This document shows positions 12,340-45,185 of a DNA stretch of 64,000 bases, one piece after another. How positions within the stretch are numbered: the first letter of the stretch is position 1; every line of letters begins with the position of its first letter. Location: assembly GCA_903910555.1 (NCBI GenBank), contig CAIVZZ010000019.1, positions 1-64,000 on the forward strand, given 5' to 3'. The position numbers and the translations under genes are program-made. Source of the stretch: an uncultured Gemmatimonadota bacterium. Lineage in GTDB: Bacteria; Gemmatimonadota; Gemmatimonadetes; Gemmatimonadales; Gemmatimonadaceae. A model generated the notes under the pieces. It made no database searches and was not told where the DNA came from. It worked only from the letters and a program-made list of their open reading frames with translations.

Positions 12340-12757
12340 GGTATGCCTTCCTCCGCCTGAGGCGGGAGCACACCGCGCTGCCTGGTGTTCGGTTCGCCGG
12401 TCGGAACGCGTGCAACATGTGCGGTTCCGCTCTCCTTCTTCGTTCGGCAACCGGACGATCTCGTAATCCAACTTTGAGATTCCTGGCTTTGCGGCCCCGC
12501 CTCGCGACGGGTGTGCCCTTTTCGTGGTGAAGCGAACTTCGATTGTGCCTAATAGCTAAGCGAGAACCGTGCCACAAAAAGCAAACCCCTAACCCCTGAC
12601 CTGGCATAGACTTGCACGACTATCACACTGTGACGCACAAAATCACCACTCTTTTGCGCGCGGTGAAATGCAGTCTGCAGTCGGTGTCAATTTTTCGACG
12701 TATTTCAGCGCAAGGCGCAACTATCACAATGCAGTTGTTTGTGCTTTTTTACGCGAC
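12340..12757. promoter_or_regulatory. long divergent control region between STAS gene and acs
   Basis: This 418-base stretch contains no gene. It holds an interrupted palindrome TCACA-C-TGTGA at 12623-12633, which is CRP-like in its half-sites but with the wrong spacing, and the nine bases ACTATCACA occur twice, at 12619-12627 and 12720-12728. A small CCGCCT/AGGCGG hairpin lies in the leader of the STAS gene. Regulation of acs from here is an inference. Confidence 0.4.
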
Positions 12758-35597: not shown

Positions 35598-36731
35598 ATG
35601 TCGTCGCCATCCCCCTCGCCCGCCGAACACGCTCAGACGTATCTCCCCGAACGGTTTGCGCTCGTTCTCGGAGGCGGTGGACTGAAGGGATTTGCGCATA
35701 TCGGCCTGTTGCGGGCGTTTGAAGAGCGCGGTATCAAGCCCGCGCTTGTCGCCGGCACGAGCATTGGTGCGCTGATCGCGGCAGCGTACGCGAGCGGGAT
35801 GCCGGTGGACGACATGGAGCGCCGCGCACTCGCGCTCACCAAGAAAGATCTGTTCCGCATCGACCGGCTGCACATGGTCACGAAGCGGATGCTCTCACCC
35901 TCGCTCTATCTGCCGGGGCCGCTCGACGCGCTGGTGCGCGACATCGTGCCGCGCGTGACGTTTCGCGACCTGAAGATTCCGTTGCTGATCAACACGGTCG
36001 ATCTCGAGCGCGGAGCGCAGGTCATCTGGGGCTTGCCGGGCATGCAGGACGTTCTCGTATCCGATGCCGTGTACGCATCGTGCGCGCTGCCGGGATTTTT
36101 TCCGCCGCGTGTCATTGCCGGACGCACCTGCGTCGACGGCGGCGTCATGGACAATCTGCCAAACGCGATCGCCGTGCAGGGGATGGACGCGGTAATCGGC
36201 GTGGATGTCGGCAGCTCGAGTCTGGCGACCGCACGGCGCATCAAAGACAAAGGGTTCGCCGCGATTTATATGCGCGCCGCGCAAACGATGATGAAGTCGC
36301 TGCAGGTTTCGCAGCTCGCGACCTGGGCCGGTCCGCCGCTGCTGCTCGTGCGCCCCGCCGTCTGGCACTACAACTGGTTCAGCTTTGCCTCAACACGTCG
36401 GATGATCGACGCAGGGTATGCGGCCGCGCACGATGCGCTGGACCGCGCGGGCGATTCGCTCGCGTCCGCAGGTGGAGTGTACCCGCGGCGGACCATCGAG
36501 CTGAGCGTCGACCGGCCGCGATGCGTCGGCTGTACGCTCTGCGTGACGCTGGCGCCGGATCTGATGGCGATGGATGCGGACAATAAAGCCATCGTCCTCG
36601 AGTCTCCGCTCGAGTGGTCGCGCGCGGACGGCGACTTCATTCACCAGTGCCCGACGGACGCGATTCAAGTTGCAGTCATGGAAGGGGACGTTCGCACGTT
36701 GACGATGGAACGGAAGGTTGAGCCGGAGTAA
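35598..36731 (+). CDS. patatin-like phospholipase fused to a ferredoxin domain
   Basis: A protein of 377 residues. The N-terminal 275 residues form a patatin domain with the oxyanion loop LGGGGLKGFAHIG, the nucleophile Ser55 in AGTSIGALIAA and the Asp180 of CVDGGVMDNLP. The C-terminal 80 residues form a small ferredoxin: Cys309, Cys312, Cys315 (RCVGCTLCVTLAP) and Cys351 (HQCPTDAIQV), enough for one iron-sulfur cluster of the [4Fe-4S] (or [3Fe-4S]) type. No signal peptide is seen. The pairing suggests a lipid hydrolase controlled by or linked to redox state, which is an inference. Confidence 0.88.
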   Translation: MSSPSPSPAEHAQTYLPERFALVLGGGGLKGFAHIGLLRAFEERGIKPALVAGTSIGALIAAAYASGMPVDDMERRALALTKKDLFRIDRLHMVTKRMLSPSLYLPGPLDALVRDIVPRVTFRDLKIPLLINTVDLERGAQVIWGLPGMQDVLVSDAVYASCALPGFFPPRVIAGRTCVDGGVMDNLPNAIAVQGMDAVIGVDVGSSSLATARRIKDKGFAAIYMRAAQTMMKSLQVSQLATWAGPPLLLVRPAVWHYNWFSFASTRRMIDAGYAAAHDALDRAGDSLASAGGVYPRRTIELSVDRPRCVGCTLCVTLAPDLMAMDADNKAIVLESPLEWSRADGDFIHQCPTDAIQVAVMEGDVRTLTMERKVEPE

Positions 36732-42085: not shown

Positions 42086-42652
42086 ATGCTGCATCGAAAC
42101 ACTACACTTCTCGCCGCCGCACTCGTGACGTGCGTCACCGTCGCACACGCGCAGGCTCCTGCACAGGCTGAAGTTGGCCCGAAAGTCGGCGAAGTGGCGC
42201 CCGACTTTACACTGCCAGGCGCGACCATGGGCGGCCTGTCGAAAATCTCACTCTCAAAATTCAAGGGACAGACGGTCGTGATCGCCTTCTTCCCGAAGGC
42301 GCGCACGTCAGGCTGCACCGCGCAGATGACGGGCTACCGTGACCAGTGGGCAACGCTGTTCAACGGCGGCAAGGGCATTCAGGTCATCGGCATCAGCATG
42401 GACGCCGACACGACGCAGATGGATTGGGCACAAGAAGCACACCTGCCAATGATGTTCGCAAGCGACATGAAGGGTGAAGTCGGCAAGCTCTACGGCGCGT
42501 ACGTCGATGGGCGCCCCGTGGAGAACCGCCTGCTCTACGTTGTCGGCCCGGACGGCAAGATCGCGTGGACGGCCAAGCCGTTCAAGCCGATGGTCGCAGA
42601 GTCTTACTCCGAGCTCGGCACCGAGATCAAGAAAGTCGCGGGAACGAAGTGA
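42086..42652 (+). CDS. exported peroxiredoxin/AhpC-TSA family protein (Cys form)
   Basis: A thiol peroxidase of 188 residues with a signal peptide (cleavage near THAQA-like VAHAQA). The core GEVAPDFTLPG and TVVIAFFPKARTSGCTAQM is typical, with peroxidatic Cys77. The resolving cysteine is not obvious, so a 1-Cys or partner-dependent mechanism is likely. A GAGG site eight bases before the ATG at 42086 supports the start; the frame is open upstream to 42053. Its stop overlaps the start of a paralogue of exactly the same length in which this cysteine is TGA. Confidence 0.93.
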   Translation: MLHRNTTLLAAALVTCVTVAHAQAPAQAEVGPKVGEVAPDFTLPGATMGGLSKISLSKFKGQTVVIAFFPKARTSGCTAQMTGYRDQWATLFNGGKGIQVIGISMDADTTQMDWAQEAHLPMMFASDMKGEVGKLYGAYVDGRPVENRLLYVVGPDGKIAWTAKPFKPMVAESYSELGTEIKKVAGTK

Positions 42653-43215
42653 TTTCGAAGTTGGTAATCGCAGCCCTCACCGTCACCGCGCTCGTCGCGG
42701 TGACGGCTGGGGGGTTGCTCGCGCAGATGCCGAAAGTCGGTGACATGGCTCCCGACTTCACGCTGAAAGGTTCGACCAAGGACGGACTTCTCCCGAAGCC
42801 GATCCACCTCGCCGATTTCCGCGGGCAGACCGTAGTCCTCGCCTTTTTTCCAAAGTCGCGAACGAAGGGCTGAACCGTTCAAATGGAGGCGTACCGTGAT
42901 CAGTACGCCACGCTCTTCAAAAACGGACAAGGAGTTGCCGTCATCGGTATCAGCACCGACGACGACACCGTGCAATTCAACTGGGCGCGCGACGCGCACT
43001 TCCCGGTGTATTTCGCCAGCGATCCAGACATCAAGGTCGGCAAGCTCTACGACGTAAAGTATCCGCTCATTAACTACGAGAAGCGCGTGGTGTTCGTGAT
43101 CGATCCGAGCGGAAAAATCACGCACGTTATGGATCCGTTCAAAGAGCTGGTCGCGGACTCGTACACAGAGCTCGGCGATGCGGTAACCAAGGCCGGAGCG
43201 AACAAACCCGAGTAG
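42649..43215 (+). CDS. probable selenocysteine-containing peroxiredoxin (in-frame TGA at the peroxidatic site)
   Basis: Read through one TGA at 42871-42873, this is a 188-residue exported peroxiredoxin, the same length as the upstream Cys paralogue. The sequence before the TGA ends FFPKSRTKG and continues TVQMEAYRDQYATLF; in the paralogue the aligned position is Cys77 (SGCTAQMTGYRDQWATLF), so the TGA encodes residue 75 as selenocysteine at the peroxidatic site. Codon use is normal on both sides and the protein ends at TAG. The GTG start at 42649 overlaps the upstream stop (GTGA). A hairpin with seven base pairs at 42888-42909 fits a bacterial SECIS. Selenocysteine machinery is outside this window. 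Confidence 0.85.
42888..42909 (+). other. SECIS-like hairpin downstream of the in-frame TGA
   Basis: GGCGTAC at 42888-42894 pairs perfectly with GTACGCC at 42903-42909, with an eight-base loop CGTGATCA. The loop begins 21 bases after the TGA and has G as its second base, in line with the bacterial SECIS pattern as I recall it (loop G in the first two positions, stem within tens of bases of the UGA). The aligned stretch in the Cys paralogue (GGGCTAC and GTGGGCA) does not pair. Confidence 0.72.
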
Positions 43216-43227
43216 ATTTCGGGCGAC

Positions 43228-44139
43228 ATGACTCCACCAACGCAGATAACGATCGGACTCATCCAGGACGCCGTCAGCGGTGATCAAACGCAAACGCTGA
43301 CGGCCACGATCGCGCGCATTCGCGAGGCCGCCGGCCGCGGCGCGCAGATCATCTGCCTCAAGGAACTCTTCAACGCGCCGTACTTCTGCAAATCGCTCAA
43401 GCAGGAGTATTTCAATTTCGCGGAGCCGATTCCGGGGCACACCACCGAAGTGCTGCACGCGCTCGCCGCGGAACTGCAGATCGTGCTGATCGTGCCGATG
43501 TATGAACGCCAGGGCCCCGGCATCTATCGCAACTCCGCCGCAGTGATCGACGCCGACGGCACGCTGCTCGGCGTCTATCGCAAAATGCACATCCCGCACG
43601 ACCCGATGTTCGAAGAGAAATATTATTTCACACCGGGCGATTCCGACGGCGACGGCCCGCAGTCTGCCGGCGGCTTCAAAGTCTGGAAGACGCGCTACGG
43701 AATCATCGGCGTGCTCATTTGCTGGGATCAGTGGTATCCCGAAGCCGCGCGTATCACCGCGCTGCTCGGCGCGGAGATTCTGTTTTATCCGACAGCCATC
43801 GGCTGGCACCCCGCGGAAAAAGCAGAGTGGGGCGACGCGCAGGTTGATGCGTGGCGTACGGCGCAACGCGCCCACGCAATTGCGAACGGCGTGTTCGTCG
43901 CTGCGACAAATCGCGTGGGGCTCGAACCGGAACCCGGCACCGACGGACTCGAGTTTTTCGGACATTCGTTCGTCTGCGATCCGTTCGGGCGTGTGATCGC
44001 CGAAGCGGGCACCGATCCGTCGATCGTCGTCGCGTCGTGCGATCTCTCGCACATCGAGTCCACCCGCCGCAACTGGCCGTTCCTGCGCGATCGGCGCATC
44101 GACGCGTACGGTCCGATCCTGAACCGCTGGATGGGATGA
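43228..44139 (+). CDS. aguB: N-carbamoylputrescine amidase
   Basis: Hydrolyses N-carbamoylputrescine to putrescine, CO2 and ammonia. A nitrilase-superfamily protein of 303 residues with the Glu-Lys-Cys triad: Glu in CLKELFNAPYF, Lys in VYRKMHIPHDP and Cys in GVLICWDQWYPEAAR. The conserved ending is RRNWPFLRDRRIDAYG. The gene starts 12 bases after the selenoprotein stop and overlaps aguA by ATGA, forming the agmatine-to-putrescine pair. Placement downstream of the two peroxiredoxins suggests one transcript. Confidence 0.94.
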   Translation: MTPPTQITIGLIQDAVSGDQTQTLTATIARIREAAGRGAQIICLKELFNAPYFCKSLKQEYFNFAEPIPGHTTEVLHALAAELQIVLIVPMYERQGPGIYRNSAAVIDADGTLLGVYRKMHIPHDPMFEEKYYFTPGDSDGDGPQSAGGFKVWKTRYGIIGVLICWDQWYPEAARITALLGAEILFYPTAIGWHPAEKAEWGDAQVDAWRTAQRAHAIANGVFVAATNRVGLEPEPGTDGLEFFGHSFVCDPFGRVIAEAGTDPSIVVASCDLSHIESTRRNWPFLRDRRIDAYGPILNRWMG

Positions 44140-45185
44140 CGCCACTGCGCTGGCCCGCCGAGTGGGAACGGCACGATGCGACATGGATTGCCTGGCCGCA
44201 TCACGAACCGGATTGGCCGGGAAAGTTTGAGCCGATTCCGCTGGTCTACGCGGAGATCGTACACGCGCTGCATTCACACGAGCGCGTCGAGATTCTTTGC
44301 CACGATGAAACCGTTCGAGAGAAGGCCTCGCGGATTCTCGGCGAACGCGGGGTCGACTTGGCGCGCGTCCGTCTGCATCTCGTTCCGACAGATCGCACCT
44401 GGCTGCGCGATTCCGCACCGACCGCTGTGCGCAGCGCCGCCGGCGATGTCGAACTCGTGCGATGGGGATTCAACGCGTGGGCGAAGTACGACAATTTTTC
44501 ACGCGACGCTGAAATCGGCGTCGCGGTCGCGCGGCTGACCGGGTTAAAGGTTCGCGAACCGCAGCGCCCTGACGGAAAAGGCCGCGTGATTCTCGAAGGC
44601 GGCGGCATCGAAACCGACGGACTCGGCACGATGCTCGTCACCGAAGAATGGCTGCTCTCGGATACGCAGGTGCGAAATTCCGGACTCGGACGCGGTGACT
44701 ACGAACGCATCTTCGCCGACGCGCTCGGCATTTCAAAAACGATCTGGCTCGGCGAAGGCTGCATCGGCGATGACACGCACGGTCACATCGATGATATCGC
44801 GCGATTCGTCGCGCCCGGTGTATTGGTGCTCGCGCACGAAGAAGATCCCTCCGACGAAAACCACACACGCTCGCTCGACAATTTGAAACGGCTCGCCAAC
44901 GCAACCGATGCGCGCGGCGAGCCGATCAAAGTTGTCACGCTTCCCTATCCGAGCGCCGTCATGATGGAAGGCCAGCGCCTTCCCGCGAGCTACGCAAATT
45001 TTTACATCGCAAACGGCATCGTCATCGTCCCAACTTTCAACGACGCGAACGACCGCGTTGCGCTGAACACACTCTCATTACTCTTCCCCGACCGAAAAAT
45101 CGTCGGCATTAACTCAGTAGATCTCGTCTGGGGCCTGGGAACGCTGCACTGTCTGACCCAACAGCAGCCGTCTCCTCGCTCCTAG
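44136..45185 (+). CDS. aguA: agmatine deiminase
   Basis: Converts agmatine to N-carbamoylputrescine. The protein is 349 residues, with the guanidine-deiminase fold. Motifs include HDATWIAWPHHEPDWPG near the N-terminus, RTWLRDSAPT, EGGGIETDGLGT, the catalytic His in THGHIDDIARF, and the nucleophile Cys in GTLHCLTQQQPSP at the C-terminus. The ATG at 44136 overlaps the aguB stop, so its product is passed to the enzyme encoded just upstream. Together they give a two-step route to putrescine. Confidence 0.95.
   Translation: MTPLRWPAEWERHDATWIAWPHHEPDWPGKFEPIPLVYAEIVHALHSHERVEILCHDETVREKASRILGERGVDLARVRLHLVPTDRTWLRDSAPTAVRSAAGDVELVRWGFNAWAKYDNFSRDAEIGVAVARLTGLKVREPQRPDGKGRVILEGGGIETDGLGTMLVTEEWLLSDTQVRNSGLGRGDYERIFADALGISKTIWLGEGCIGDDTHGHIDDIARFVAPGVLVLAHEEDPSDENHTRSLDNLKRLANATDARGEPIKVVTLPYPSAVMMEGQRLPASYANFYIANGIVIVPTFNDANDRVALNTLSLLFPDRKIVGINSVDLVWGLGTLHCLTQQQPSPRS

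Follow-up and report, generated by a model that had tools for sequence, protein, structure and literature searches.

The gene at positions 42649 to 43215 of the window, by which we mean the whole stretch of 64,000 nucleotides that was analysed, very probably encodes a selenocysteine (Sec) peroxiredoxin, in which an in-frame UGA would be decoded by means of SelB and a hairpin behind it, and the Sec form would be ancestral, with Cys forms derived from it repeatedly. The evidence, drawn from sequence comparisons, supports the Sec reading put forward in the original prediction: the source genome contains the Sec machinery, homologues have only TGA or Cys at the column in question, and the hairpin displays both covariation and a freezing of synonymous sites. 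The TGA specifies residue 75 of 188 and aligns with Cys77 of the gene just upstream; as had been predicted, both genes are 188 codons long and the second frame runs past the TGA to a TAG at 43215 (Table 1). In profile searches both tandem genes were AhpC/TSA peroxiredoxins, the Sec gene matching PF00578 with an E-value of 2.4e-28 and 99 bits against a curated cut-off of 26.

Table 1. Positions of the features discussed in the text; coordinates are those of the window except for fdhA.
Feature	Position	Strand	Remarks
Cys paralogue peroxiredoxin	42086..42652	+	Cys77 is the sole Cys of the mature domain; 49% identity to the Sec protein
GTGA overlap, stop of upstream gene and start of Sec gene	42649..42652	+	likely translational coupling
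Sec-peroxiredoxin gene	42649..43215	+	188 codons: GTG start, TGA (probable Sec) at codon 75, TAG stop
Hydrophobic N-terminus (ends ...LLAQ), a likely signal peptide	42649..42726	+	predicted from hydropathy
In-frame TGA, probable Sec codon of the peroxidatic site	42871..42873	+	PKSRTKGU, matching PxxxTxxU; TGA in 88/133 homologues, Cys in 45/133
Near-invariant nucleotide block in Sec genes, CAAATGGAGGCGTACCGTGATCAGTACGCC	42880..42909	+	alignment of Sec genes
SECIS hairpin, GGCGTAC-CGTGATCA-GTACGCC	42888..42909	+	7-bp stem, 8-nt loop CGUGAUCA, UGA-to-loop distance 21 nt
Carbon-nitrogen hydrolase, aguB-like	43228..44139	+	PF00795; homologue at 45/81 loci
Agmatine deiminase-like, aguA	44136..45185	+	PF04371; homologue at 44/81 loci
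fdhA (locus L183)	G000:C15:22436-24376 (outside window)		in-frame TGA at NRTUHAPSVVGL; second selenoprotein gene of the source genome

A homologue was present in 162 of the 179 genomes of the family (Gemmatimonadaceae), about 100 of them with a TGA inside the match, and the TGA form also occurred in other families of the order and in one Longimicrobiales MAG (L127). When the peroxidatic column was read from the DNA of 133 homologues, it contained TGA or Cys and nothing else, in agreement with the original prediction. These data bear on the alternative that the gene is a pseudogene, contains a sequencing error or stops early, its downstream part being either a remnant or an independent gene that starts internally at ATG 42883. 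Standard ORF calling did split the gene, as had been foreseen, into the two fragments 42565-42873 and 42883-43215, just as such a truncation would lead one to expect; however, the TGA lies in the same codon of 88 homologues with both halves conserved, neither TAA nor TAG occurs at the column, the silent sites beyond the TGA are frozen, and the Sec machinery is present, which together make truncation extremely improbable.

Behind the TGA the perfect seven-pair hairpin described earlier was found exactly at 42888-42909 and was missing from the Cys copy; it folds, and it fits the published bacterial model. Bacterial SECIS elements have a loop of 3-9 nt with a G at its first or second position, a stem of 4-16 bp and a distance of 16-37 nt from the UGA (PMC13188914), and the hairpin agrees with all of these rules, its G being at loop position 2. 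As a single sequence it is weak evidence, because, when this stretch was recoded at random with synonymous codons, about 4% of the versions contained a perfect hairpin with 7 bp or more (10% folded equally well), and we rejected the lone hairpin as proof of a SECIS for that reason. Its conservation across genomes turns it into strong evidence for a putative SECIS. Among 79 Sec genes, codons +3 to +12 showed hardly any variation at silent sites, contrary to the codon preferences of both the Cys genes and the source genome; the frozen codons included CGT (99%), GAT (99%) and CAA (95%), whereas Cys genes, in which the hairpin stretch was unconstrained, favoured CGC, GAC and CAG. Three stem pairs had changed on both sides, a level of covariation matched by 0 of 500 shuffles, and in homologue L023 (ACG/GTC) the double change replaced two alanines, one by T and the other by V, while the RNA pair was retained; the outermost stem pair was unpaired in 12 of 61 sequences. 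A covariance model of the SECIS recovered the hairpin at 82 bits in a search of the source genome, where only the Sec gene and its Cys twin scored above chance; because bacterial SECIS elements vary by gene, this carries no information on further selenoproteins of the genome.

The source genome (3.2 Mb, 100% complete) contained every component of the machinery whose presence the original prediction called for: selA (548 bits) on contig C27, and selB (337 bits), selD (382 bits) and, immediately adjoining selD, a tRNA-Sec with anticodon tca (UCA; 77.4 bits) on contig C15. The same genome carries an fdhA gene with an in-frame TGA, and the place of that TGA (RTUHAPSV) is the known Sec site of FdhA. 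The TGA in fdhA ruled out the peroxiredoxin as the sole selenoprotein of this genome. With machinery and fdhA TGA both present, the reading of UGA as Sec is expected in the host cell independently of the peroxiredoxin. Insertion of Cys or Trp at the UGA, by a near-cognate tRNA or a change of the code, would be in keeping with the Cys found elsewhere at this residue; but TGA terminates the neighbouring Cys paralogue, and thus the genetic code is not reassigned, the genome encodes a tRNA-Sec(tca), and such readthrough would give no role to a hairpin conserved at the spacing of a SECIS, nor to the co-occurrence with selA. We therefore consider it very improbable and retain Sec as the residue most probably inserted.

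The distribution of selA followed that of the TGA form. Within the set of 162 family genomes that carry a homologue, selA was detected in 94 of 102 with a TGA-form peroxiredoxin versus 9 of 60 without (Fisher p ~4e-24, uncorrected for relatedness among genomes). For these counts TGA status was checked by alignment at 88 loci and taken elsewhere from the stop count in the search match; G155 and G156 were counted as Cys forms after alignment showed Cys. An independent-pairs test of the association was not significant, there being too few pairs, and a phylogenetically corrected association was accordingly dropped as a claim. The eight Sec-type genomes in which selA was undetected were mostly incomplete MAGs; G139 (L035 / L106; 96% complete) has a Sec peroxiredoxin with an intact SECIS, an FdhA without TGA and no detected selA, reflecting either an assembly gap or a recent loss of the machinery. 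FdhA uses the same Sec machinery in the source genome and has an unrelated fold. In genus g31, by contrast, FdhA lacks the TGA while the peroxiredoxin is of the Sec form: eight genomes (G133, G135, G136, G138, G142, G143, G147 and G148) combine a Sec peroxiredoxin and selA with a Cys-type FdhA, and G137 and G149 have a Cys peroxiredoxin and Cys-type FdhA, with selA absent. Because the peroxiredoxin tracks selA in this genus despite the Cys-type FdhA, it may be the Sec peroxiredoxin that sustains the Sec machinery there. G027 contains Cys peroxiredoxin copies, yet has kept selA and a TGA-containing FdhA.

The tandem arrangement was observed in part of the source genus. A 4-nt stop/start overlap, GTGA as in the window or ATGA, was shared by every one of the 11 tandem pairs read in the genus, and likely reflects translational coupling. 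The Sec/Cys duplicate pair that had been proposed is real in the window, but it belongs to part of the genus, represented by the 11 pairs read, in two of which (G027 and G028) both copies are Cys; most relatives have the Sec copy without a twin. The Cys paralogue, made from the reading frame immediately upstream and sharing the 4-nt overlap, would serve as a selenium-independent companion. Alternatively, the two proteins, instead of being an enzyme with a backup copy, might act as one mixed Sec/Cys hetero-pair, with Cys77 of the paralogue resolving or reducing the Sec partner once it is oxidised. The lack of a resolving Cys in either protein and the retention of the coupling overlap in 11/11 pairs would suit a hetero-pair, but the occurrence of the Sec form alone in most relatives indicates that a partner is not generally needed, and G027 and G028 have two Cys copies; we regard the hetero-pair as unlikely and favour a companion role for the paralogue. 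The aguB- and aguA-like genes come next, as expected from the placement of the pair upstream of aguBA. Together with aconitase they recur as neighbours at many loci; they probably mark the location and nothing further, and the aguB-like gene is not needed for the mechanism.

Two other features of the window were recorded in passing: a c-di-GMP-I-GGC riboswitch at 12442-12526 on the minus strand (63.5 bits), and, at 35598-36731 on the plus strand, a gene that fuses, in an unusual combination, a patatin-like phospholipase to a C-terminal 4Fe-4S ferredoxin domain.

The Sec protein is probably exported, as judged from its hydrophobic N-terminus and the similar signal-like N-termini of its homologues. 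An AF2 model with a mean pLDDT of 90.3 had a peroxiredoxin fold with residue 75 near a helix start, and the nearest structures by both sequence and fold were Sulfolobus Bcp1 (3drn) and other peroxiredoxins. Arg146 was kept in all rows of the alignment, residue 72 was Thr or Ser, and none of the 133 rows had a second Cys in the domain. From these features we propose that the protein is likely an extracytoplasmic peroxide reductase with a 1-Sec mechanism that draws on a thiol from elsewhere; its export, its reductant and its substrate are all predictions. SelB carrying Sec-tRNA(UCA) would bind the hairpin and decode the UGA at 42871 as Sec75; Sec75, assisted by Thr72 and Arg146, would attack H2O2 or an alkyl hydroperoxide and become a selenenic acid; and the oxidised Sec75 would then be reduced by an external thiol, as in 1-Cys peroxiredoxins, an external reductant being needed because the domain has no other Cys. 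The Pro of the PxxxTxxC/U motif (Pro68 in the window protein, -7 from Sec) is replaced by Y, F, I, V or S in 53 of the 88 Sec forms (homologues L022-L169), and is retained in all 45 Cys forms. A causal tie between Sec status and loss of the Pro was considered and set aside, the direction fitting but the independent pairs being too few. The missing Pro could also point to an exported thiol oxidoreductase or redox sensor built on a peroxiredoxin fold and not mainly a peroxidase; against this, the peroxide-site residues (Thr/Ser and Arg) are retained in all rows and the top fold matches (Bcp1, Prx) are peroxidases, so that we consider such a function quite unlikely and peroxide reduction the likely one.

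Resolving Cys residues in PrxQ-type enzymes commonly lie at +5. The window protein differs from 2-Cys BCP/PrxQ enzymes in having no Cys at +5, and from BCP/PrxQ proteins such as Bcp1 in that Sec would replace the peroxidatic Cys. With the known bacterial Sec peroxiredoxins (PF00578/COG1225) it shares the fold family, the Sec position, the motif and a SECIS right behind the UGA. A Sec peroxiredoxin with PxxxTxxU has been shown experimentally in Eubacterium acidaminophilum (PrxU; Sohling 2001, as cited by PMC8533274), and others were found in the Sargasso Sea set (PMC1088965). The window protein scored 55.1 bits against NCBIfam PrxU (NF040737), below its cut-off of 270, and unlike the PrxU type it has no resolving Cys, a predicted export signal and a tandem Cys twin. 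By title or abstract, the open-licence PMC literature held no description of this gene in Gemmatimonadetes or Gemmatimonadota, and the open-licence PMC papers on selenoproteins that we examined did not name the phylum Gemmatimonadota. Thus, although Sec peroxiredoxins are already known, the Gemmatimonadota subfamily is apparently new and undescribed.

Trees were built after removal of the active-site and SECIS columns, the careful tree comprising 67 rows. The best 67-row tree called for nine Sec/Cys exchanges (7-9 across bootstraps); a single exchange sufficed in 0% of bootstraps, and at least five exchanges were forced by well-supported branches. Cys rows were nested among Sec groups in the second copies of G027 and G028 (98/93), in the g5 group (97/93) and in the Cys groups within g31 (99/97). 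A single origin of Sec followed by repeated Sec-to-Cys loss is the simpler reading that this pattern suggests, and independent gains of Sec are unlikely because the SECIS is the same in all Sec genes, silent sites included; the direction from Sec to Cys depends on how the trees are rooted and on this common SECIS, and some of the apparent events could instead stem from gene conversion between copies. The Sec form with its SECIS would then be ancestral to the subfamily in Gemmatimonadota, and the Cys forms would have been derived repeatedly, often alongside loss of the Sec machinery. No Sec-to-Cys event for peroxiredoxin appears in the list of Zhang and co-workers (PMC1794560), and a 2026 review described Sec-to-Cys reversions as rare in bacteria (PMC13188914).

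For Gemmatimonadota as a phylum, we consider it an evenly balanced proposition that an exported 1-Sec peroxiredoxin, and not formate dehydrogenase, can keep the Sec machinery in place, and that this protein has reverted to Cys at least five times. If true, at least five Sec-to-Cys reversions in a peroxiredoxin would run against the published view of their rarity. The analysis adds to Gemmatimonadota a widespread probable selenoprotein that gene callers cut in two, and it offers a natural experiment on the retention and loss of Sec, in which close relatives differ at one site and some genomes would have the two forms, Sec and Cys, adjacent in one operon.
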